This document shows, piece by piece, positions 209 to 11,217 of a stretch of DNA of 16,109 nucleotides (within the stretch, counting starts at the first letter, position 1; each line of letters opens with the position of its first letter). This DNA comes from Anaerolinea sp. (GTDB lineage: Bacteria; Chloroflexota; Anaerolineae; Anaerolineales; Anaerolineaceae). The notes below the pieces were generated by a model. It had not been told where the DNA came from and ran no database searches. It saw only the letters and a program-made list of their open reading frames with translations. Where the stretch lies: NCBI GenBank assembly GCA_020216845.1, contig JAIWNK010000157.1:1-16109 (forward strand), in the 5' to 3' direction. The position numbers were made by a program, and so were the translations under genes.

Positions 209-961
209 TTAAGTTTTCGCAACCCGACCCAGGGCATAAAAGGTTGGAATGTAAAGAACACGTTCACCGCGTTGGTAGGCTTGCTGTTCAACCTTTTGTA
301 GCGCGTCCAATTCTGTGGGGGTGCAAAAAGCGTGCAGGTCTTGGCGGAGCACGGACCATTCCAGATCATCTGCGGTTGTTGGGCGATCTTCGTCTTGCCA
401 AAAACCACCGAGCACGCCGCTTTGCACCTGTTGCAGACCGGCCTGGTGGAAGAGAGCAGACAAACGGCGTCCAATGAGGGGGTCGGCGCCTTGTTGCTGC
501 AAGGCGGCGGTCTGTAGCTTTCCCAGGTCGGCGAGAGCTGGCGGATAATCAATCCGTCCGCCGTAGTCGGGCTCAGCCAGGGCAAGCACCCAGCCGCCAG
601 CAATGGTGACGCGGCACATTTCCAACAGGGCGGCTAAGGGGTTGGGCAGCCAGAGGAGCAGAAAATGGCAAAAGCTCAGGTCAAACGAATTTGCGGCAAA
701 CGGCAGGTGGGTGGCGTCGCCGTTGAATAATGTTGACGCGGGGGCAACCTGACGGGCAAAGCACAGGGCTGACCGATCGTGATCAAGCCCGTAGACCAAC
801 GGTCCGGTTGGCATGTCGCAGAGCAGCGCGCCTGTGCCGCAGCCGACTTCTAGAATGCGGTGAGCTGCCTCTGCGTTGGATTGGGCGAACAGGTGTTGTC
901 GAAGGGAGCGTGTCCAGCTTGCCTGTTGCCGATAGCGGGTGTGCCACTCGGATAGGTTCAC
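209..961 (-). CDS. Class I SAM-dependent methyltransferase (last gene of the radical SAM operon)
   Basis: A 250-residue protein if started at GTG 961, which overlaps the TGA of the preceding gene as GTGA. An in-frame ATG at 997 is possible but would create a 40-nt overlap. Motif I ILEVGCGTGALL (about residues 37-48) binds SAM. An acidic residue in GLDHD ends strand 2, and DATHLPFAANSFD followed by a hydrophobic strand and a PNP segment is typical of the Methyltransf_11/UbiE-BioC-like group. The region after AEPDYGGRIDYP is less conserved and should hold the substrate site. The acceptor substrate cannot be read from the sequence. Because the gene is translationally coupled to the radical SAM pair, a role in tailoring the same product is a reasonable inference; an unrelated small-molecule methyltransferase is the alternative. 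Confidence 0.85.
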   Translation of the reverse strand: MNLSEWHTRYRQQASWTRSLRQHLFAQSNAEAAHRILEVGCGTGALLCDMPTGPLVYGLDHDRSALCFARQVAPASTLFNGDATHLPFAANSFDLSFCHFLLLWLPNPLAALLEMCRVTIAGGWVLALAEPDYGGRIDYPPALADLGKLQTAALQQQGADPLIGRRLSALFHQAGLQQVQSGVLGGFWQDEDRPTTADDLEWSVLRQDLHAFCTPTELDALQKVEQQAYQRGERVLYIPTFYALGRVAKT

Positions 962-2127
962 AGGCGGGCGCGCGCTTTTTGCCAGATGGCGACCCAATCG
1001 TCTTTGAGCAAATTGCCCAGCACTTCTTCAATACCTTGTGCGGGCAGCACATCGCCATCGGGTTCAACGTATAGCCAGGCACGTCCGGCACCTTGCACAG
1101 GTGTTTCCCCTTCGGAGAGTTCCAGGCTGAGCGGATGGAAGCTTGAATAGGGCACAGGCAAATCCCACGTCAATGAGAGGCCAAGGAGGAATGCCAGGTC
1201 GCGCAGGTCGTTCAATGCTGGGCGTAGCTCCGGGCTGCTTGCGCTGAGTGACAGGGAGTGGACATTCATCTGATGCAGTTTGCGGATCAGCTCTTCCATG
1301 TTGGCCTGATTGTTGGGCGTGAGCGTGAGGTGTACGGTGACGAATAGGTCTTCGGCCAGGGTGTCGCGCAGCGCTTCCCAGGCGGTTTCAGAGCTCGGGT
1401 CGAGGATCAGCATCAGGTGGTCGAGGCCGCTTTGTAGCACTTGTTGCAAGTATGTTGGCTTGCAAAGGCGTTGTCCATCACTGAGCAGACCCGTGACCTG
1501 ACCCAGTTTCTCAGCGTGGGCAATTAGTTCGGGCAGGTCAGGGCGCAGGGTTGGCTCGCCGCCGGTGAAGATGATGTGTGGAATGCCGGCTTGCCAGGCC
1601 TTATCCAGGATGGTTTTCCACTCTTGTGTTAGCAATTCGCGTGTGACGCGTGCGGTCGGCGCCAAATCGGGCGAGAAGCCTTCGCTCAGGCGGTACGTGA
1701 GGGCACAATCAAGCCGATAGGGGGCTGTCAGTGCACTGGCATAAGGGTCAACTCGTTCAAAGTCAAGGAAGGTTTCGGGGTCGAGGTCGGGGGTTTCAAT
1801 GAGCGTGTGCAGGCGCTCCTGAAAGTCACGAAAGTCATTGGCTGCCTTGGCCGCTGAAATCTGATAACGCCGTGCAATGAGGCGGGCAACTTGTTCGGCA
1901 GGAGTCTGTTGGATGAGATGATAGGCGTATTCAGCAGCGGTTTGGTTGAGGTGTAGGACGGTGCTGGCGTTGAGGATCAGCAGAGAGTCGCTGCCTGGGT
2001 CAATGCGCAAATGCATACGATAGGGCGGTTGGACCTCGGGGGGGGATTGGTAGGTGTAGATGCCGGGGGGCAAAGGGGCGGGGCGGCCAAAGATCCGGTC
2101 GAAGAGGGATTCAAACGTGCGTTTCAC
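958..2127 (-). CDS. Cluster-less radical SAM paralogue (pseudoenzyme) with PqqD-like N-terminal domain
   Basis: A 389-residue homologue of the radical SAM protein encoded two genes upstream. Shared blocks are PGIYTYQ (21-27), the PqqD-like domain (about 35-115; LHLNQTAAEYAYHLI), APYRLDCALTYR (135-146), IPHIIFTGGEPTLR (182-195) and DLPELIAHAEKLGQVTGL (197-214). The loop that should carry CX3CX2C aligns without gaps, but the three cysteines are Leu147, Phe151 and Asp154. In the SPASM-like C-terminus EPDGDVLPAQ replaces the partner's SDGSVLPCQ, and the protein ends just after IWQKARARL, so CX2CX5CX3C is absent. Only two cysteines remain (141, 222), so neither the SAM cluster nor an auxiliary cluster can form. 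The frame is intact, with a strong ribosome site and coupled neighbours, so this is a maintained protein rather than decay. Likely a non-catalytic partner or substrate-binding subunit (inference). Confidence 0.88.
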   Translation of the reverse strand: MKRTFESLFDRIFGRPAPLPPGIYTYQSPPEVQPPYRMHLRIDPGSDSLLILNASTVLHLNQTAAEYAYHLIQQTPAEQVARLIARRYQISAAKAANDFRDFQERLHTLIETPDLDPETFLDFERVDPYASALTAPYRLDCALTYRLSEGFSPDLAPTARVTRELLTQEWKTILDKAWQAGIPHIIFTGGEPTLRPDLPELIAHAEKLGQVTGLLSDGQRLCKPTYLQQVLQSGLDHLMLILDPSSETAWEALRDTLAEDLFVTVHLTLTPNNQANMEELIRKLHQMNVHSLSLSASSPELRPALNDLRDLAFLLGLSLTWDLPVPYSSFHPLSLELSEGETPVQGAGRAWLYVEPDGDVLPAQGIEEVLGNLLKDDWVAIWQKARARL

Positions 2128-2132
2128 AGTAG

Positions 2133-2139
2133 ACCTCCT
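2133..2139 (-). promoter_or_regulatory. Ribosome binding site fixing the GTG start of the radical SAM paralogue
   Basis: AGGAGGT on the minus strand lies five bases before GTG 2127 and overlaps the TAG stop (2140-2138) of the upstream membrane-protein gene. It decides the start: the open frame continues upstream to 2487, but that part is antisense-like sequence inside the membrane-protein gene, and homology with the active paralogue begins only after this GTG. Confidence 0.85.
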
Positions 2140-3667
2140 ATGGGGTAGGTGCATTGGATGGGAGCAATAGGGTGAGCAAACAAACGATGCTGAGGATGAG
2201 GACGCTGCTGATGATGCTGACGGTAAGCCATTTGTTGGTTTTGGGGATGTTTCCCAACTTAATTGTTGGTGCGATCGAATCCAGTTCTTCTGGCTTGCCA
2301 GTGAGCCGATGGCGACGGAAGAAAACAATGAAAAGGAGGTAAGGCAAGCCAAACACAAACACGCTGACAGCAAAAAGCAGGTTGACCATTTGCTGTAATT
2401 CGCGGCTAAGTAAGCCGGTTGTGGCATCACGCATATTGATGGAGATGATGGTGACACCGAGAACGGCCAATACCAGGCCAAAGCCAAGCAGAATGCGACC
2501 GCTACGCGGTGCCAGTTTGCCCTCTTTTTCCGATAGGCGGACGCCTAAGCTAAGCGTGCTATGGGTAATTAGAGCGGCAAAGACGAGTAATGATGGGCCA
2601 AGCCCCAATTGTTCGGCGGTGAATTCAAGCGGGTCATAGATGTTGGTGCCGAGCAGGGCGAGCACCAGGCCGAGTGTAAAGGCAGGGGAGGCAACGCTGA
2701 CTGCCAAGCAGGTAGCTGCGTTGCGGGCATTCCAGCGTCGGGCAATGAGCAGCACGACCGTAACGATGAGAACGGGGATTGAGAAGAAAAAGTCCACGCC
2801 GGCGGTCATATCCAATGGAGTGGGTTCGGGCAATTCGCCGCCGCCCGCTGCAAGAATGTCGTTCAGGGCAAGCAATAGGACTATGGCTGGGCGAGTGATG
2901 ATCACAAAGGCAGATAATGCTTTGAGAACATCATCGTCAAAGCGTTTTCTGACAAAGACGACGAGACGCTTGCCGAGGTCTACTGCCGCATCTACAACGG
3001 CGATGCCGGAGAACAGCCATATAGGAAGCAGCAGAAGTAAGATGATCGAAGAGATACCATCCAGTTGATAGGCAAGGTTTGAAAGGCTGCCGCTTCCGAG
3101 GACGTAAAGCAGAAAAAAGAAGAAGATGACGCCAAGCCAGATGAGGAACTCGCCAATTTGGAAGCTCTTCCAGAATGGTTTTTTGTGGGTGAAAAGGTAG
3201 GGGATGGTGCTGCCGATCCACAACAATGGCGCTGTGCAACACCAGAGGATCAAGGCGGCTTGTCTTTCAAAGGGTATGATGCAGAGCAGCTGTCCGCCAA
3301 ATAGCAAAGCAATGGGGATGAAGAAGAGCGGGCCATCTGTGGCGCCGGTAAGTAAAAAGGCCCAGCTGAGCATCAGTGCCAGCATGCCGCTGAATAAGGC
3401 TAAGATGGGGATTTCTCGCAATCCGAGCGTTTCGTTTGGTGGAAGGAAGGTGATACTGGGAATGCTTGAGTAGAAGATTTCAGTGACGAAAACGGAGATG
3501 AGCAATACTCCAGTGGATGTGTAACCGACAATGCTGAGAATGCGCAATTGGCGCGGCATTTCTTTGAGGTTGTGAAAGGCCTCTTCGAAGGGAATAAGAT
3601 AGAAATAATACGCGAATCGCCAAAGAATATTGCCAATAAAACGGAGGGAGCTGATTATTTGGTTCAT
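2138..3667 (-). CDS. Polytopic inner-membrane protein of unknown function (12-13 helices)
   Basis: A 509-residue protein starting at ATG 3667, which overlaps the TGA of the radical SAM gene as ATGA; the frame extends to 3742, but that part lies inside the upstream gene. After an N-terminal amphipathic stretch (about 1-45) there are 12-13 hydrophobic segments, for example ILSIVGYTSTGVLLISVFV, ILALFSGMLALMLSWAFLL, FLIWLGVIFFFFLLYVL, IILLLLLPIWLFSGIAVV and WLTVSIISSVLILSIVCLLTLLL close to the C-terminus. A charged loop KRLVVFVRKRFDDD lies mid-protein. I recognise no transporter, protease or ATPase motif and no known family. It sits between the active and the cluster-less radical SAM genes, so a role as membrane anchor, exporter or assembly partner for the operon product is plausible but unproven. 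Confidence 0.85.
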   Translation of the reverse strand: MNQIISSLRFIGNILWRFAYYFYLIPFEEAFHNLKEMPRQLRILSIVGYTSTGVLLISVFVTEIFYSSIPSITFLPPNETLGLREIPILALFSGMLALMLSWAFLLTGATDGPLFFIPIALLFGGQLLCIIPFERQAALILWCCTAPLLWIGSTIPYLFTHKKPFWKSFQIGEFLIWLGVIFFFFLLYVLGSGSLSNLAYQLDGISSIILLLLLPIWLFSGIAVVDAAVDLGKRLVVFVRKRFDDDVLKALSAFVIITRPAIVLLLALNDILAAGGGELPEPTPLDMTAGVDFFFSIPVLIVTVVLLIARRWNARNAATCLAVSVASPAFTLGLVLALLGTNIYDPLEFTAEQLGLGPSLLVFAALITHSTLSLGVRLSEKEGKLAPRSGRILLGFGLVLAVLGVTIISINMRDATTGLLSRELQQMVNLLFAVSVFVFGLPYLLFIVFFRRHRLTGKPEELDSIAPTIKLGNIPKTNKWLTVSIISSVLILSIVCLLTLLLPSNAPTP

Positions 3668-5016
3668 GGTTTTGGCGAGAGGTGGTTTCTTTCCAGTGGG
3701 CAGCCGCCGCCGCATTCGGAGAGCAGGCCACAAGTCTGACATTCGGTCGGCAGGTTACGCCGTTCACGCAGGCTGAGGGCTAACTCGTGATTCCAAATGT
3801 CCTGCCAGGGAGTTTCAAGAATGTTGCCCAGGCTGGTGTAATACGATTGACAGGGCAAGACACTGCCATCAGATTCGATGCACATGTTGTAGAGTGCGGC
3901 CGTGCAGCCTTTGACTCCCAAATCCATTTGGACGGGGTCGAAGTGACAATATTGGGTTGGCGTGTACCAGATTAGCCGCTGACCCTGTTGCTCGGTGATG
4001 GTGCGGGCCATTTCGAGCAGGGTGGGTAAGTCGCTGGCGGGCAGTCCACTGCCGACGTTGGCACCATGACCGGCATAAATGAGCGCATTCAGGCCAACGG
4101 TTGGCACGCCCATTTGCCCAAGAAAGCGCAGCGTTTCAGCCAAGGTGTGACGGTTGCTGCGGAGCATGGTGGTGTTGGTCATCACATAGAGGCGGGTGGC
4201 CAGGGCGTTGCGAATGCCTTGGGTTGTTTCTTGCCAGGCGCCGGTGGCGCGCACCATGCGATCGTGAACGCTGGCATCGTGCGATTCGAGCGTGATTTGT
4301 ACGTGGTCCAGCCCGGCATTGATCAGGGTCTGCAAATAGAGTGGATCGCTGAGACGGCGGCCATTGGTGTTGAGCCCGGTAATTTGGCCGAGGGATTCGG
4401 CGTGGGCAATTAGCTCTGGCAGGTCATCGCGCAGGGTCGGTTCTCCACCGGTGAAGACAATGTGGGGAATGCCGATTTGCCACAGCAAGTCCAGAATGCG
4501 TTTCCACTCTGCGGTAGGCAGCTCGGGGTAATTGCGCGGGCGGTCGTTGTAGCAGTGGGCACAGGCGTTGTTGCAGCGGTAGGTGAGAGCCAGGTCCATG
4601 CGGTAGGGTGCGCTTGGGTGCGAAGAGAACGGGGCAGTCGTTTCTAGATCCAGGTCGCAAACTGGGCACGCTCCCTCAGGGTCAAGCAGGGCTTGCAGCT
4701 GCTGACAGAAGTTGGCGTAGTCTTGCCTGGCTTGAGACGAGCGGACCTGATAGGTGTGCATGAGCGCTTGAATCGCTGTGCGTTGGGGGGTGTCATTGAG
4801 GGCCAGGTGCGCCATGAAGGTGGCGCTGGGGTTGAGGTGCAAGAAGCGGGCGGCGTTGATGATCAGTAAGCCACTGCCATCGCCTTCAACGCGCAGATGC
4901 AGGCGGGCCCGTCCTTGTGGGCTTTGGTGCTGAAAGGAATAGATCCCCGGGGCGGGGTGTTCGGGGAGTGGGGTTGGGCGCGCGGCTGCCCAAAGCTGCT
5001 CAAGCCAGAGCGGCAT
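3664..5016 (-). CDS. RRE/PqqD-like domain fused to radical SAM-SPASM peptide-modifying enzyme
   Basis: A 450-residue, probably cytoplasmic enzyme. Residues about 40-112 resemble PqqD-type RiPP recognition elements (LLIINAARFLHLNPSATFMAHL ... YQVRSSQARQDYANF). Residues 141-350 form the radical SAM domain: C148-X3-C152-X2-C155 for the [4Fe-4S] cluster, FTGGEPT at 188-194, and NTNG at 216-219. The C-terminus is SPASM-like: C371, C379, G384-X4-C389, then C426-X2-C429-X5-C435-X3-C439, which can ligate auxiliary clusters; the last canonical SPASM cysteine seems to be missing. An extra CPVC (117-120) lies between the two domains. Start ATG 5016 has AAGGGGA overlapping the TAA of the upstream gene. 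Enzymes with this layout generally install thioether or C-C crosslinks in peptides bound by the RRE (known for the family). The adjacent protein with a Cys-Ala tail is the obvious candidate substrate (inference). Confidence 0.92.
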   Translation of the reverse strand: MPLWLEQLWAAARPTPLPEHPAPGIYSFQHQSPQGRARLHLRVEGDGSGLLIINAARFLHLNPSATFMAHLALNDTPQRTAIQALMHTYQVRSSQARQDYANFCQQLQALLDPEGACPVCDLDLETTAPFSSHPSAPYRMDLALTYRCNNACAHCYNDRPRNYPELPTAEWKRILDLLWQIGIPHIVFTGGEPTLRDDLPELIAHAESLGQITGLNTNGRRLSDPLYLQTLINAGLDHVQITLESHDASVHDRMVRATGAWQETTQGIRNALATRLYVMTNTTMLRSNRHTLAETLRFLGQMGVPTVGLNALIYAGHGANVGSGLPASDLPTLLEMARTITEQQGQRLIWYTPTQYCHFDPVQMDLGVKGCTAALYNMCIESDGSVLPCQSYYTSLGNILETPWQDIWNHELALSLRERRNLPTECQTCGLLSECGGGCPLERNHLSPKP

Positions 5017-5028
5017 GGGAGTTTCCCC

Positions 5029-6732
5029 TTACCTGCCACCGCCGGCACAAGCACAGGCGCAACCGGCGCAGGCACAGGCGCATGCGCAAGAACGTCCGCC
5101 GCCGCCACCACTTCGCCCTCGCGAGGAGCTACTGCTGCTGCTGGGTTGTGGGATCGGATTGGTGCGGTTGGTGATGCCACTGGTGAAGCTGTTGACGTCA
5201 TTGACGATGCCAGAGGAGACGTTTTGGACGCTGTTGACGACGCGGGCAGCAAAATCGGAGCCGGGCAGGTGTGGCAAACTGCCAGGAGCAGCGCTGACCC
5301 CTGCTGCACCACTGCCCTGGAAAGCCGCCGGAGCACTGCCGCCGATTGGACGGGCAAAAGTTGGGTCGAGCCGTCCCCACCAACCGGGCACGTAGACGGG
5401 GCCGCTGGAAAATACCTCGCGGGTGCGGCGGTCGTAGTCACGGTCAAGCATTGTCCAACCAAGCAGTTCGTCGTAGCGCTGACTTTTGACTTCGGGGGTG
5501 TTGGCAGCTTCCACCTGTTCCCAGGCCTTTGTCATAATGCTCCGGTAATATTCAAGCGTTTCTTTACGGCTGAAGCCTTTCATCTTCTCGCCCACGCTCT
5601 TGACCAGCGCCACAACCATGGATTGAAGCGCTTTTTGGCGTGCTGGGCCGTCTTTTTCTTTGAAGGCGTCCAGGAATTCGATTTCGTAGGGTTGAAGTGT
5701 TTCGGGCAAGGGGTCGGCGCGTTCCAGCGTCAGCGGTTTGAGGCTGGTGACAGTTGCGGCACCTTTCTTGAGGATGCTGAAGAGGGTCATTGTCAGCACT
5801 TTGTCGAGCGGCTGTTCCATTAGGATGGCAGCTTCAATGGCTGTCAGGCCGCGCTTGATGCCATGTCCTTCAACCGAGATGCGCGGTGGCATGTATTGCA
5901 GACGGCGTTTTTTGGCAGCTTGCGCGCTCGAAACAGAAACCCACGTGATCAGGCCAAGGAAACCGGCACAGCAACCCACGGACATGGCGGTGTCGTCATC
6001 AATTCCCAGCGTATCCCACAGGGTGGGGCGTTTGAGCACGCCTTCTGGCATGAGGCGGGCGGGGAAGGAGGCGCCAAAACGATATTTGTTGGCGGTGTTA
6101 GCTTCAGTGCTGCGCCAACGATAGAAAACACTGCCTTGCTGGTCGTAGCCTGATTCGGGTTCTGCCGCCCCAGGCCAGCCAGCGGGGGTGAAATAACGCG
6201 GCTCTTCTGGCTCGATGCCAGGCGGCAGGTGCAGGGTAAGGGTGTAATCGGTGTTGCCGGTGACCAGGCTGGAATCAAAATAGTTCGGTTGGAAGTTGAA
6301 ACTGGCGTAGTCTTCGTTGTTGACCGGCTTGGTGTAGAAGAGCATGCCTTGAATGCCGGTGATGCGGGCGTGGAAGGTGCCCTTTTTGCCAGGGGGGATG
6401 GAGTTGGCGCCCAGGCCAAAGGCAATGCCGTTATCAATGTAGGCGGAGATGCTGATATCGGTAATCTTTTTGCCGTTTATATCGGCGCTGGCATTGGCAG
6501 TGCTGAATTGCGTGGTGGGCATGCCGATATCCACGTATTCGATGGTCGCGCCTTTGGGTTGGTTGGCAAAGACGTAAACGTAATCTACTGTCGCACTGCC
6601 ATCTGCATTGATATACAGATGGACTTCAGCTCGTTCAACGGCAAAGTAATAGGATTGGGCAGACGCGCTGACAAACGAACCGGCCAGGGCAAATACAATC
6701 AAAAGCAGGGATAGCCAACGAATGAGGCGCAT
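5029..6732 (-). CDS. DUF2207-like membrane protein with C-terminal Cys-Ala repeat tail (candidate modified substrate)
   Basis: A 567-residue protein starting at ATG 6732, with AAGGAG 6 nt upstream. Residues 1-25 are a signal peptide (hydrophobic core LLLIVFALAG, cleavage site ASA-Q). Residues 26-245 form a beta-rich extracytoplasmic domain with repeated Asn/Tyr motifs. A membrane segment at about 248-268 (VGCCAGFLGLITWV) is followed by AAKKRR, so the C-terminal 300 residues should be cytoplasmic by the positive-inside rule. That part has a helical region (AIEAAILMEQPLDKVLTMTLFSILKKGA) recalling DUF2207/TPM-type proteins, a linker rich in Gly, Ala, Pro and Asn, a seven-Ser run and an Arg/Gly stretch. 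It ends in (CA)4-G-(CA)3-GGGR. The stop codon is 12 nt from the radical SAM gene. The DUF2207 assignment is tentative; topology and tail are seen directly. Confidence 0.82.
   Translation of the reverse strand: MRLIRWLSLLLIVFALAGSFVSASAQSYYFAVERAEVHLYINADGSATVDYVYVFANQPKGATIEYVDIGMPTTQFSTANASADINGKKITDISISAYIDNGIAFGLGANSIPPGKKGTFHARITGIQGMLFYTKPVNNEDYASFNFQPNYFDSSLVTGNTDYTLTLHLPPGIEPEEPRYFTPAGWPGAAEPESGYDQQGSVFYRWRSTEANTANKYRFGASFPARLMPEGVLKRPTLWDTLGIDDDTAMSVGCCAGFLGLITWVSVSSAQAAKKRRLQYMPPRISVEGHGIKRGLTAIEAAILMEQPLDKVLTMTLFSILKKGAATVTSLKPLTLERADPLPETLQPYEIEFLDAFKEKDGPARQKALQSMVVALVKSVGEKMKGFSRKETLEYYRSIMTKAWEQVEAANTPEVKSQRYDELLGWTMLDRDYDRRTREVFSSGPVYVPGWWGRLDPTFARPIGGSAPAAFQGSGAAGVSAAPGSLPHLPGSDFAARVVNSVQNVSSGIVNDVNSFTSGITNRTNPIPQPSSSSSSSRGRSGGGGGRSCACACACAGCACACAGGGR
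5044..5088 (-). other. Cys-Ala repeat tail encoded at the 3' end of the DUF2207-like gene
   Basis: Residues 549-563 are four Cys-Ala pairs, one Gly and three Cys-Ala pairs, followed by GGGR and the stop. The seven Cys codons mix TGC and TGT and the seven Ala codons mix GCA, GCC and GCT. The repeat is therefore not a young DNA microsatellite and seems to be kept at protein level. No zinc-binding spacing (CX2C) is present. Evenly spaced CXC cysteines separated by small residues recall core peptides of thioether-forming radical SAM enzymes. Confidence 0.85.
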
Positions 6733-6754: not shown

Positions 6755-7135
6755 TTACCACTTTGGTTCTTCGCTAATTTGGTAGGTCGTTTTGCAATAG
6801 GGGCAACTGACCATTGCTGCGCCGTTGACAATTTTGATGTCATCGCTAGAGAGAACGCCGCCGCAAGACTGACATTTAATCGTTTCCATGGCCACTTTGC
6901 CGGGCAAGTCAATTTTGAGGGTGACTTGTGTGCCGGGGCCTGGTGCAGCGGGAGTGAGGAAGCGAAAAGCGACGAAAATGAGCACAAAACCAATGCCAGC
7001 CAGAATCAGACCGGTCAGAATGAGGCCGCCGGGTGAGCCTTGTGATTCGGGGCTGAACGCAGCAAGGATGAACAAGACTCCAAACAGAATCAGGACAGCC
7101 GCAATGATCAGGGCGATGATTTTGAGTGCTTTCAT
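6755..7135 (-). CDS. Small membrane protein with C-terminal zinc ribbon, first gene of the operon
   Basis: A 126-residue protein starting at ATG 7135, with GGAGGTG a few bases upstream. Two hydrophobic segments (about 5-28 and 36-60) form a hairpin. They are followed by a Pro/Gly linker and a soluble domain with C88-X2-C91 (CQSCGG) and C111-X2-C114 (CPYCKT), a classic zinc-ribbon pattern. Two helices without a signal peptide would place both ends on the same side, most likely the cytoplasm, as zinc ribbons usually are. The stop is 22 nt from the next gene, so it is almost certainly co-transcribed. Function unknown; a scaffold or metal-dependent interaction module near the modification machinery is one possibility. 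Confidence 0.85.
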   Translation of the reverse strand: MKALKIIALIIAAVLILFGVLFILAAFSPESQGSPGGLILTGLILAGIGFVLIFVAFRFLTPAAPGPGTQVTLKIDLPGKVAMETIKCQSCGGVLSSDDIKIVNGAAMVSCPYCKTTYQISEEPKW

Positions 7136-7191: not shown

Positions 7192-7323
7192 GATTCGTTC
7201 CATATTGTGCGGAGAAAGCTGAGCAGAGATGATTGCTCTTGGTCTGCAAGCGCCATCCGGCCTTTGCTTCTCTTGAAAGGATGGGCGCTGTTTCCTTGGG
7301 ACAAATATCCCCGCAAGCGGCGC

Positions 7324-7352
7324 TTGACGCATGGCTACTCAAAGAGTATCAT
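7324..7352 (+). promoter_or_regulatory. Sigma70-type promoter of the tandem cyclase gene
   Basis: TTGACG (7324-7329) and TATCAT (7347-7352) are separated by exactly 17 nt, so transcription should start near 7359 and leave a leader of about 37 nt to ATG 7396. This also argues that the open frame upstream of 7396 is not translated. The rest of the 260-nt divergent interval (7136-7395) holds the possible opposing promoter and otherwise nothing I recognise. Confidence 0.55.
7336..7348. repeat. Short inverted repeat in the cyclase promoter (TACTC-AAA-GAGTA)
   Basis: A perfect 5-bp inverted repeat with a 3-nt centre, covering the end of the spacer and the first bases of the -10 box. The position would suit an operator for a small dimeric repressor, but such short palindromes also arise by chance. 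Confidence 0.3.
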
Positions 7353-7395
7353 TTCTTTACAAGGATATTTAAAAAAAGCGGTGAGGGTCTTTGAG

Positions 7396-10300
7396 ATGAA
7401 GAATTTGGTGCCACTTTTCATTCAAAATCAATACCGAAAAGGTTGTTTTGCTGGTCAAATGCAGGCTGTGACCATGTTTGTGGATATTTCTGGCTTCACC
7501 CGCATGACAGATGCATTGATGCAGCATAGAAAAGATGGCATTGAGACGCTTTCGGATATTCTTAGCTATGTTTTTGGGCCAACGGTTCGGAGCATCTACA
7601 AGGGGGGCGGTTTTGTTTCGACCTACGCAGGCGATGCCTTCACCGCGCTTTTCCCGGTTGAGTCCGATCCCGTTCAGGTGGCGCAACGGGCTTTGGCTGC
7701 GGCACAGGAGATCATTCAGTTCTTTCGCGTTAGCGGCAAGTATGAGTGCGCATTGGGGCAGTTTGCCTTTTCTGCCAAAGTGGGGCTTGGGCTTGGCCCT
7801 GTAGAATGGGCGATTGTCGGGGATGATGCTGCGCGGCTGTTTTATTTTCGCGGCGATGCAATTGATGCCTGTGCGCAGGCTGAACATCATGCTGTGGCGG
7901 GTGAAATTTGGGCAGAAGATGCGTTTATGCAAGCGGCGATGCTCAACCCGTCGTTGGATCGGGCGCAGGGACGTTTTGTGCCGTTAGACGTACAGCTGCA
8001 GCAAGAATTTGCTGATGTGGAGATTGCCTCGCCAATTTTTTCGGCGTCTGAGATGCGGTTGTTTAGTGGCGAGGCTGAGTTTGATTTCCCTGAGGGCGAG
8101 TTTCGCGAGGTCATTTCGGCTTTCATTGCCTGGGATGAATTGCCGGATATGCAAAGCTTTTTGCAGATGGCTTTGATGTTGCAACGGCGCTATGGTGGCA
8201 GTCATTTGCAGCTCGATTTTGGTGATAAGGGCAGCAAAATGGTGCTGTTTTTTGGGACGCCGGTGACGCATGAGAACAAAGAGGAACATGCTTTGCAGTT
8301 TATCCGTGAACTTTGGCGGCAAATGCCAGCTTTGGCAAAGGTCAAAGCTGGGCTGACGCGCGGTGTGGTTTACACAGGCTTTTATGGTTCACCGTTGCAG
8401 CAGGCTTTTTCTTGTCTGGGCAGTGCGGTCAATCAGGCGGCGCGCTTTATGGCGCGGGCTGAGTGGGGACAGGTGTTGTGCGATGGCGGGCTTGCCAAAA
8501 CGCCCGGTCATACATTCACGTACCTGGGCGATTTTTCATACAAAGGGCGTTCGCAACCGATCCCGACATATGCGTTGCAGGCTGCGGCAGCAACAGAAGC
8601 AGTGCGTTCGTCGCGCGCTGCGGCGGAGCAGGCACATTTGCTGATTGGACGGGAGAATGAGCTGCGCTTTTTGCATCATGCCTTGCAGCCTTTGCAAGAA
8701 GGGCGGTTTGGCGGTGTGTTGTATGTGGATGGTGAAGCAGGTTTGGGCAAGAGCCGTTTGTTACAGACTTTCAGACAACAAACGGCGCAATTTCGTTGGT
8801 TTGTTTTGCCCTGTGATGAGGTGTTGCGCAAAAGCCTGAATCCGTTGGTGTATTTTTTGAACGGCTATTTTGAACAAGATCAGGCAAGCAGCGCCGAGGA
8901 AAAACAACAACGCTTTGAGGCGCGCTTCAATCAGCTGCTTCAACAAACACGCGATGCAAATCTAACGCGCGAGCTCAAGCGTGGACGGCCATTTTTGGGG
9001 GCTTTGTTACAATTGCCGCAGGAAGAGGCGCAGTTGCGCCAATTTGACGCACAGGCGCGTTACGAAAACACGTTGGATGCCTTGAAAGTTCTTTTCAAGG
9101 CTGAAAGTGCACAACAACCGCTCATTTTGCACCTGGAAGATGCTCATTGGATTGACCCCGATTCGCGTGATTTCTTCCGCCTTCTGACCCGCAATGTGGA
9201 AGATTGCCCCTTTTTGTTGCTGACGGCTTGCCGTTATCAGGACGATGGCAGCTTGTTTGAGCTTTCGCTGGAAAGCGAGACGCCGGTTCAGCGTCTGACG
9301 CTTGGACCGCTTTCTGAGTCGGAGGCGGGAAAGCTGATTGCCTTTGTCACCCGGCGCGAGGCAGCTGTGCCGCCCGCAACCCTGGCGTTTATCCATCAGC
9401 GCAGTTCTGGAAACCCGTTCTTTATTGAGCAAATTACTCTTTATCTCATTGAAAACCAATTGTTGGATGAACAAAACAATTTGGATGAACGTTTGCTCAG
9501 CGGGCAAGCGGAACTGGAAATTCCGGCTACGATCAACGCGATTTTGGTGGCGCGCATTGATCGCTTGTCGGCCGAGTTGAAGAGAATCGTCAAAACTGCG
9601 GCGGTGTTGGGGCAGGAATTTGCAACCATCATTCTTTCCACGATGTTGCGCAAGGTGAATGCCGAGCCGGAAGACGAGCTCCATCGTTATTTGTCTGCTG
9701 GTGAGGAGCAAACCATTTGGACGGCGATTTCGGAATTGCGTTACATCTTTCGACACGCTTTGATTCGAGATGCTGTGTATGGAATGCAACTGAAGAAGCA
9801 GTTGCGCGCTTTGCACAACCTGGCGGGTGAAGCAATTGAAGAACTCTTTCAGTCCAACCTGTCGCCTTATTATGTTGACCTGGCGGAGCATTATGAAAAA
9901 GCGGAGCGACCGGAAAAAGCTATTTTTTATCTGACCCTGGCTGGGCAGGCGGCCTTGGATTCGTATCGAAATCAGCAGGCAATTGGACTGTATGACCGCT
10001 TGTTGCAATATCCGCTGCCGGCAGAGGCGGAATTGAGCGCATGGGAAAACAAAGGCAAGGCGCAGCGCATTGCCGGAGATTGGCAGGCAGCAAGGCAAAC
10101 CTATGCTCAGATGCTTGAGCGTGCCGAGGCGTTGGATTTGCCATTGTGGCAGGCAAAGGCCGCCAACGCATTGGCTTATTTCTTGCTCGTACATGGGGAG
10201 ATTGAGCAGGGCACGGCATTGGCGGAACGCGCTCAAAGGTTGGCCGTGCAAATAGGGGCGCGCGAGGAACAGGCTCAGGCGTTAAGAAATTTGGGGATTG

Positions 10301-11217
10301 CTTGTAACAAGAGCGGCGCATGGAGCCGCGCCCGAGAGATACACACAGAGATGCTGGCTCTGGCAAAGGAAATTGATGATTTGTCGGCGATTGTCTCAGC
10401 GCTTTTCCAGTTGCGTCAAGATCTGCTGGAAGAAGGCACGCTGATCCCTGAGTTTGAAAAATATTTGCGTCGCGCCGAGGAGAAAAACGACTTGCGTCTG
10501 GTGGCTTCGTTGTGGTTTTACATTGGCGATGTCTATCTCTTGCAGCATGATTATCCGGCTGCTGAACAGGCCAACCGGCATATGTATGAAATTGTTTATC
10601 AAATTGGCGACAAACACGGCATGTGTTACGCCATTGGCGATCGGGGCATTGTCTTATCGGAGCAGGGCCGGTTTGAGGAGTCAATTGAGTGCTATCGTGA
10701 AAAACTTGCTCTGGCGCGCGAACTTGGTGATGGCTACAATCTTTGGGAGGGGACGTTCAACTGGGCGGCAGTGCAGACGTATCAGGAAAAACATGCCGAG
10801 GCGCTGGAGCTGTTGCAAGCAGCTGCCGAAATTGCCCGAAAATATACCCTCAAGGGCGAATTGACGCTCACGCTGCTGACATTGGCTGAAAATGCTTGGG
10901 CGCGAGGGGCATTGGCAGAGGCACGCAACGCCCTGGCCGAAGCGGATGCCTTGAATGCAGATTTGGGCGATGAGACGTTTTCTCGGCAAAGCCGCTTGCT
11001 GACGGCAAAGCTTGAACACGACCTCGACCTGTTGGATGGATTGTTGCACTCTGCACGGACGGATGAGGAGCGCGCCGAGCTGTGCTTTGAGCGCTGGTGC
11101 ATGACGCATGCTGAAGAGGACCGTCAACAAGCGCTGCATTGGTATCAGTCAATTGATGGGCGGTTTTTGGGCTACACACAGAAGAACCGGCTTGCCAAAT
11201 TGACGGCGCAAGCATGA
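7396..11217 (+). CDS. Tandem class III adenylyl cyclase - ATPase - TPR protein (soluble-adenylyl-cyclase layout)
   Basis: A 1273-residue protein, probably cytoplasmic. Start ATG 7396 is preceded by GAGG at 7383-7386. Cyclase domain C1 (about 20-200) has FVDISGFT with metal-binding Asp30 and YAGDA with Asp80, but its transition-state positions read GDAIDACAQ (Asp157, no Arg). Domain C2 (about 236-395) lacks the metal aspartates (FIAWD) but has GSAVNQAAR with Asn346 and Arg350. C1 and C2 can thus build one heterodimeric site, as in mammalian ADCY10. Next comes an AAA/STAND ATPase: LIGRENEL (416), Walker A GEAGLGKS (446-453), Walker B LILHLED (576-582). From about 820 to the end are TPR-like helical pairs (for example AEHYEKAERPEKAIFYLTLA). 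The likely reaction is ATP to cAMP under control of the ATPase/TPR sensor. Cyclic product and signal are inferred. Confidence 0.9.
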   Translation: MKNLVPLFIQNQYRKGCFAGQMQAVTMFVDISGFTRMTDALMQHRKDGIETLSDILSYVFGPTVRSIYKGGGFVSTYAGDAFTALFPVESDPVQVAQRALAAAQEIIQFFRVSGKYECALGQFAFSAKVGLGLGPVEWAIVGDDAARLFYFRGDAIDACAQAEHHAVAGEIWAEDAFMQAAMLNPSLDRAQGRFVPLDVQLQQEFADVEIASPIFSASEMRLFSGEAEFDFPEGEFREVISAFIAWDELPDMQSFLQMALMLQRRYGGSHLQLDFGDKGSKMVLFFGTPVTHENKEEHALQFIRELWRQMPALAKVKAGLTRGVVYTGFYGSPLQQAFSCLGSAVNQAARFMARAEWGQVLCDGGLAKTPGHTFTYLGDFSYKGRSQPIPTYALQAAAATEAVRSSRAAAEQAHLLIGRENELRFLHHALQPLQEGRFGGVLYVDGEAGLGKSRLLQTFRQQTAQFRWFVLPCDEVLRKSLNPLVYFLNGYFEQDQASSAEEKQQRFEARFNQLLQQTRDANLTRELKRGRPFLGALLQLPQEEAQLRQFDAQARYENTLDALKVLFKAESAQQPLILHLEDAHWIDPDSRDFFRLLTRNVEDCPFLLLTACRYQDDGSLFELSLESETPVQRLTLGPLSESEAGKLIAFVTRREAAVPPATLAFIHQRSSGNPFFIEQITLYLIENQLLDEQNNLDERLLSGQAELEIPATINAILVARIDRLSAELKRIVKTAAVLGQEFATIILSTMLRKVNAEPEDELHRYLSAGEEQTIWTAISELRYIFRHALIRDAVYGMQLKKQLRALHNLAGEAIEELFQSNLSPYYVDLAEHYEKAERPEKAIFYLTLAGQAALDSYRNQQAIGLYDRLLQYPLPAEAELSAWENKGKAQRIAGDWQAARQTYAQMLERAEALDLPLWQAKAANALAYFLLVHGEIEQGTALAERAQRLAVQIGAREEQAQALRNLGIACNKSGAWSRAREIHTEMLALAKEIDDLSAIVSALFQLRQDLLEEGTLIPEFEKYLRRAEEKNDLRLVASLWFYIGDVYLLQHDYPAAEQANRHMYEIVYQIGDKHGMCYAIGDRGIVLSEQGRFEESIECYREKLALARELGDGYNLWEGTFNWAAVQTYQEKHAEALELLQAAAEIARKYTLKGELTLTLLTLAENAWARGALAEARNALAEADALNADLGDETFSRQSRLLTAKLEHDLDLLDGLLHSARTDEERAELCFERWCMTHAEEDRQQALHWYQSIDGRFLGYTQKNRLAKLTAQA

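Follow-up and report, generated by a model that had tools for sequence, protein, structure and literature searches.

A membrane protein of Anaerolinea sp. ends in a cysteine–alanine repeat that is very probably the substrate of a radical S-adenosylmethionine (rSAM) enzyme encoded next to it. Both genes lie in the window analysed here, the whole 16,109-nucleotide contig JAIWNK010000157.1 of a genome assembly estimated to be 76% complete, within a minus-strand operon of six open reading frames (ORFs) that specify a small Zn-ribbon-like protein, the tailed membrane protein, the rSAM enzyme, a polytopic membrane protein, an rSAM-like protein and a methyltransferase. Our explanation as a whole, in which the adjacent enzyme modifies the tail of the full-length membrane protein and thioether crosslinks are among the modifications, has in our estimate a probability of about 0.55.

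Positions 5029-5091 encode, on the minus strand, S-CACACACA-G-CACACA-GGGR-stop, with seven cysteines within 14 residues and a mixture of TGC/TGT and GCA/GCC/GCT codons, as an earlier note on this DNA had read; the stop ends at 5029 and the enzyme's ATG lies at 5016, leaving the 12-base gap also reported there. All 30 of the best whole-protein matches (the window protein and 29 relatives, 50-61% identical) share the identical 19-residue end. In the alignment of these proteins, every one of the 19 tail columns was invariant; the outside domain had 24 invariant columns out of 202, the winged-helix-like domain 33 out of 161 and the pair of helices ahead of the tail 10 out of 42, and the linkers had none. 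At the DNA level, 62 loci with the 4+3 tail carried 62 distinct sequences, with a mean of 11.2 differences per 57 bases; pairwise differences fell at 20354 third, 765 first and 0 second codon positions (96% third), which argues against contamination and, in agreement with the earlier note, against DNA slippage. The tail is under strong selection at the protein level. A broader alignment took in 48 proteins from bacteria and archaea; the tail held 12 of its 23 invariant columns, and 14 of the 19 tail columns reached at least 90%. Because this set was picked for holding CACAxCACA, tail conservation there is partly by construction and not independent evidence, and the conservation claim therefore rests on the 30 proteins, which were selected for similarity over their whole length.

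A CA-tailed ORF was present in 34 of 40 further fetched regions, the remaining six being contig edges (L066, L071, L084, L087), an enzyme locus with its tail gene elsewhere (L078) and a kinase-FGE-like paralogue (L088). In the last of these, a single ORF without a CA tail (L088:6442-9144, G043) reads as a Ser/Thr kinase joined to the same outside domain and an FGE-like domain. Tail variants take the form (CA)2-5 G (CA)3-4 GGGR, with the ends GGGSGR in G048 and HGGAR in L142; Bathyarchaeota tails are mostly CVCACAxCACACACVSCACACAGGGxG, and the Clostridia tail CAHSSCACACASCACACACACAGGGRAGCTYKDFYRTDLKLRQL is the same in two genomes whose proteins are 71% identical. In Clostridia, a CxxC...CxxC segment like that of the small upstream protein lies inside the tailed protein itself; L263 and L264 have a shorter carrier with such a Zn-ribbon-like segment and some 20 conserved residues after the CA repeat. 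If the tail folded into two paired strands around the central glycine, every cysteine would come to lie on one face.

The pairing of tail and enzyme was quantified. Among 301 genomes drawn evenly across the phylum, the enzyme (E<=1e-60) occurred in 21 and the CACAxCACA DNA pattern in 21, with both in 20, where they were always at most 700 bases apart; a reversed control pattern matched 2 genomes. The sole pattern-only genome (G162) was a chance match carried by no ORF, and the sole enzyme-only genome (G232) has a 36%-identical enzyme whose neighbour bears a (CHSA)n tail, for which reason it was rejected as a counterexample. The earlier note had named a regular lack of Cys-rich-tailed neighbours as contrary evidence, and the opposite was seen. 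Of the 101 nearest relatives, 73 held both the enzyme and the tail protein (one, G091, matching the enzyme only via a dead twin, described below) and 24 neither; G095 and G100 showed the enzyme only, at contig ends, and G024 and G052 only a piece of the tail protein. These genomes are related throughout and the two samples overlap. An active enzyme, with pseudo-enzymes counted apart, lay within 3 kb of the tail in 76 of 93 de-duplicated loci, and in 24 of the 25 tail loci with 3 kb on both sides (exception G081).

The breadth of the system rests on these genome searches and on a contig pattern scan that returned at least 120 stretches. Among the 120 listed, 60 passed a C-terminal-tail filter and, with L142 and L208 (Clostridia variant), gave 62 real tails, the remaining 58 being chance or out-of-frame matches; an rSAM homologue was found in 54 of the 62 real-tail stretches versus 1 of the 58 chance stretches. 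When eight genomes were searched whole (seven whose stretch had no enzyme, and that of L208 as a check), all eight had the enzyme, on another contig than the tail in five and just past the stretch in two. This retention of the pair with its genes apart, and in both domains of life, speaks against a shared operon neighbourhood in which the enzyme's substrate would be a small molecule or lipid; although some relatives' operons hold other genes, one of which reads like a CDP-alcohol phosphotransferase, we consider that explanation very improbable. Among the matches listed, mostly metagenome-assembled genomes, the tails fall under at least 15 phylum-level names, which bears out the co-occurrence anticipated by the earlier note. 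The bacteria include Chloroflexota, Fermentibacterota (Sabulitectum, Hyd24-12), Aminicenantes, Acidobacteriota, Zixibacteria, Coatesbacteria, Edwardsbacteria, Armatimonadetes, Zipacnadia, Planctomycetes and uncultured Clostridia, and the archaea Bathyarchaeota and Heimdall-, Hod- and Sigynarchaeota. The Clostridia enzyme occurred in 2 of 149 genomes searched around that of L208, itself included. A named isolate, Ornatilinea apprima P3M-1, has all five genes (L149); in Leptolinea sp. HRD-7 (L195), no fewer than the first three are present, together with the beginning of the dead twin.

In G232 and G110, a PqqD/rSAM/SPASM enzyme 36-37% identical to the window's adjoins a membrane protein that has the same layout but a tail built of CHSA units (L225:6090-7847 and L227:4049-5824, respectively); G110 holds both the CA and the (CHSA)n systems. 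The (CHSA)n tail is a second repeat code. On the enzyme tree, in which 80 of 89 rows carry a tail label and very long branches lead to the rows of Clostridia, L141 and the outgroup, tail labels required 17 changes versus a shuffled mean of 28.0 (0 of 200 shuffles as low). Broad tail types carry this signal, the 4+3 type needing 13 changes and 5+3 doing no better than shuffled, and shared descent contributes to the agreement.

These observations bear on whether the tail might be left unmodified as a metal- or Fe-S-binding array, either metallothionein-like or serving as a cluster or electron donor to the rSAM enzyme, which would then act elsewhere. Seven cysteines in 14 residues would be expected to bind soft metals, and, of the 74 loci in which 0.7 kb or more of upstream sequence is available, 58 encode a small Zn-ribbon-like protein directly upstream. 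However, such an array accounts neither for the alanines between the cysteines and the GGGR end, which are invariant in all 30 orthologues, nor for a diverged enzyme being paired with a different repeat; moreover, PqqD/RRE domains (RRE, recognition element for ribosomally synthesised and post-translationally modified peptides, RiPPs) mark peptide-modifying enzymes. The alanines, the GGGR end and the disordered, linker-presented position would be more in keeping with a core that is processed than with a free tail that binds metal, and we judge the array improbable.

The enzyme has its catalytic motifs intact. The RRE-like, rSAM and SPASM domains that the earlier note had assigned all exceeded Pfam cut-offs (PqqD 3e-5, Radical_SAM 6.7e-27, SPASM 5.6e-11), and the catalytic CxxxCxxC and SPASM cysteines (C148, C152, C155, C357, C371, C389, C439) were invariant in 31 diverse enzymes; a profile search gave no PqqD match in the Clostridia enzyme. 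The top structural match was SkfB, over an aligned range that begins at residue 37 and reaches into the RRE. SkfB and CteB form thioethers, and because of this analogy thioether crosslinks would be the leading chemistry, with odds slightly better than even. The same enzyme may instead modify the tail without thioethers, by cysteine oxidation as in anSME, C-C bonds, alanine epimerisation or a combination with methylation by the operon methyltransferase. Other structural matches include anSME, SuiB and EpeE, and, of the 49 loci that have 4.5 kb or more of downstream sequence, 35 carry a methyltransferase gene on the same strand no more than 7 kb away; yet the thioether formers SkfB and CteB, and the density of cysteines, favour thioethers, if by analogy, and chemistry of the other kinds seems to us rather unlikely. 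With the enzyme as query, a search of viral contigs returned no match.

In addition to the active enzyme, 30 of the 40 regions fetched from the same order contained a catalytically dead rSAM twin. The C...C..C motif was missing from all 67 ORFs assigned to it (within the stretch searched; loci overlap), and the window copy (958-2130) retains its PqqD match. Type-II active enzymes in Armatimonadetes, Planctomycetes and some Chloroflexota have tandem neighbours that make up a second set of pseudo-enzymes. The two sets form one clade each and are not sisters (separating branch, 90% support), the second rSAM genes of L066, L070, L075, L111, L151, L175, L204 and L206 and the window's 958-2130 falling in these two dead clades; in this tree, the L141 row labelled CHSA is an unrelated rSAM of a chance locus, L227 was left out, and the CHSA rows were unused. 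The type-II enzymes of L066, L069, L075, L083 and L178 have a Cys-rich C-terminal extension of their own, with CSGCSGSCGT. The available text of PMC12093266 describes TrnC/TrnD of thuricin CD as a two-rSAM complex of which one activity is strictly essential, by analogy the nearest precedent for an active and dead pair.

The earlier note had placed the tail on a large membrane protein, not a short peptide, and in the cytoplasm. The 567-residue protein indeed has one modelled transmembrane helix, followed by KKRR, which would leave the tail on the cytoplasmic side; the tail itself is predicted to be disordered. Ahead of the Ser/Gly linker, the model places helices at 491-509 and 513-524, and across residues 487-528 the mean share of the commonest residue was 0.74, versus 0.40 and 0.47 in the flanking linkers (30 proteins). 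The designation "DUF2207-like" stood only in part: the layout resembles that of DUF2207 (PF09972) proteins, and the (CHSA)n paralogue L227 matches just over the gathering score (25.4 versus 24.4 bits), but neither the window protein nor any of 48 homologues matched at E<=0.01, and DUF2207 was rejected as its family. In L069, L078 and L083, a short tail-less carrier paralogue adjoins the active enzyme, and the tailed protein adjoins the dead rSAM.

The membrane protein could alternatively be a carrier from which the modified tail is cleaved as a small cofactor or peptide, as for PQQ (pyrroloquinoline quinone). PqqE is among the closest families of the enzyme by sequence and a flexible Gly-rich linker precedes the tail, but family scans of the six operon ORFs found no protease or exporter, the folded domains are conserved too, and one tail per 567-residue protein would be costly; we hold this to be unlikely. 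In the explanation that we prefer, with the tail staying on the protein, insertion would leave the beta domain outside, and the cytoplasm would hold the winged-helix-like domain together with the linker and the tail. The RRE of the enzyme would dock on the membrane protein, perhaps at the conserved helices, and the Ser/Gly linker would deliver the tail to the active site. There, a 5'-deoxyadenosyl radical would take hydrogen from tail residues while cysteine sulphur is bound by auxiliary clusters, most probably giving several Cys-S-to-carbon thioether crosslinks with the conserved alanines as acceptors. The modified tail would remain attached, and the dead paralogue, where present, would form a complex with the active enzyme.

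Among the neighbouring genes (Table 1), the Zn-ribbon matches of the 6755-7135 protein were weak and under cut-off. The 2138-3667 membrane gene is probably not a member of the system: no homologue was found in 40 fetched regions at E<=1e-5, and other genes occupy its position in relatives. On the plus strand, 7207-11217 holds a large ORF that reads by eye like a cyclase-AAA-TPR regulator.

Table 1 Features of the window
Feature	Positions	Strand	Remarks
Tailed membrane protein, 567 residues	5029-6732	-	Predicted layout: residues 2-18, signal-like helix; 26-227, beta domain on the outside; 246-279, the one transmembrane helix; ~298-440, winged-helix-like domain on the cytoplasmic side; then a linker, a helix pair at 491-524, the Ser/Gly linker and the CA tail
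CACACACAGCACACAGGGR tail	5032-5088	-	Proposed substrate
Two conserved helices preceding the Ser/Gly linker, residues 487-528	5149-5274	-	Candidate enzyme docking segment
RRE (PqqD-like) + rSAM (CNNACAHC) + SPASM enzyme, 450 residues	3664-5016	-	Proposed modifying enzyme
Pseudo-rSAM paralogue	958-2130	-	Retains the PqqD-like part without the CxxxCxxC and SPASM cysteines; start codon provisional
Class I S-adenosylmethionine-dependent methyltransferase	209-997	-	Methyltransf_11 E 1.1e-17; often the operon's last gene
Small protein with hydrophobic segments and C-terminal Zn-ribbon-like CxxC...CxxC	6755-7135	-	Often the operon's first gene
Polytopic membrane protein, its gene flanked by those of the rSAM and the pseudo-rSAM	2138-3667	-	No family match

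The PqqD-like RRE, rSAM and SPASM architecture is common to maturases of sactipeptides and ranthipeptides (SkfB, CteB; TrnC/TrnD), whose substrate is a short precursor with a leader, whereas here the proposed substrate is a conserved 567-residue membrane protein; unlike in TrnC/TrnD, the partner rSAM lacks the cluster cysteines. The substrates of anSME sulfatase maturases and QhpD are not the repeat tail of a membrane protein. In the HxsA/HxsB/HxsC His-Xaa-Ser system, a short-repeat tail has been proposed as an rSAM target; the repeat there is His-Xaa-Ser and here Cys-Ala, and our enzyme falls far below the NCBIfam cut-offs (HxsC model, 73.1 bits; cut-off 267.9). The portion of PMC9062424 at hand mentions this system. 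As far as the accessible part of PMC12452194 describes them, TIGR04222 membrane proteins carry a C-terminal low-complexity Ser/Gly/Cys tail, predicted to be periplasmic, beside a putative modifying MNIO enzyme, with more than a quarter of the proteins lacking a C-proximal cysteine and a third of genomes lacking the enzyme. On that description, the likeness is a large membrane protein with a low-complexity Cys tail next to a putative modifying enzyme, and the differences are an iron enzyme there and an rSAM here, and a periplasmic tail there and a probably cytoplasmic one here. The TIGR04222 model did not match the window protein and matched 3 of 48 homologues weakly (best E 0.0019), and no MNIO (DUF692) enzyme was found among the six ORFs scanned. 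We class the system as a variant of rSAM/RRE peptide modification in which the proposed target is a conserved membrane protein, and it stands outside these groups because it has no short precursor (sacti- and ranthipeptides), matches neither model nor enzyme (TIGR04222/MNIO) and has another repeat (HxsA). Literature text searches, with most subscription journals and preprints outside their scope, found no publication of the tail-enzyme system and no paper combining "radical SAM" with "DUF2207"; CACACAGCACACAGGGR was not found in print, the top-ranked matches containing GCACACAGGG only, with (CHSA)n alone less fully covered.

Collectively, our findings suggest that a whole membrane protein is chemically finished by a route not yet described. 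Faint hints of redox or metal sensing come from the hosts, which we take to be anaerobic, and from the Zn-ribbon-like neighbour; our guess at a biological use is a membrane sensor or scaffold whose tail is redox- or metal-active. More tentatively still than the explanation itself, we picture an old cross-domain family, spanning Chloroflexota, other bacteria, Bathyarchaeota and Asgard archaea, in which RRE-guided rSAMs, helped in some lineages by a dead twin, would turn a (CA)n-G-(CA)n or (CHSA)n tail into a polycysteine device, permanent and cross-linked, at the cytoplasmic face of the membrane, a RiPP-type chemistry serving the cell's own membrane machinery with no secreted product. The short, near-invariant tail with its dedicated enzyme is directly testable; as a substrate for new enzymology it is very short, and there is a pseudo-rSAM partner that can be dissected too. 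If the proposal is true, rSAM/RRE peptide chemistry would reach beyond small natural products to a conserved membrane protein that occurs in two domains of life, with Asgard archaea among its hosts.
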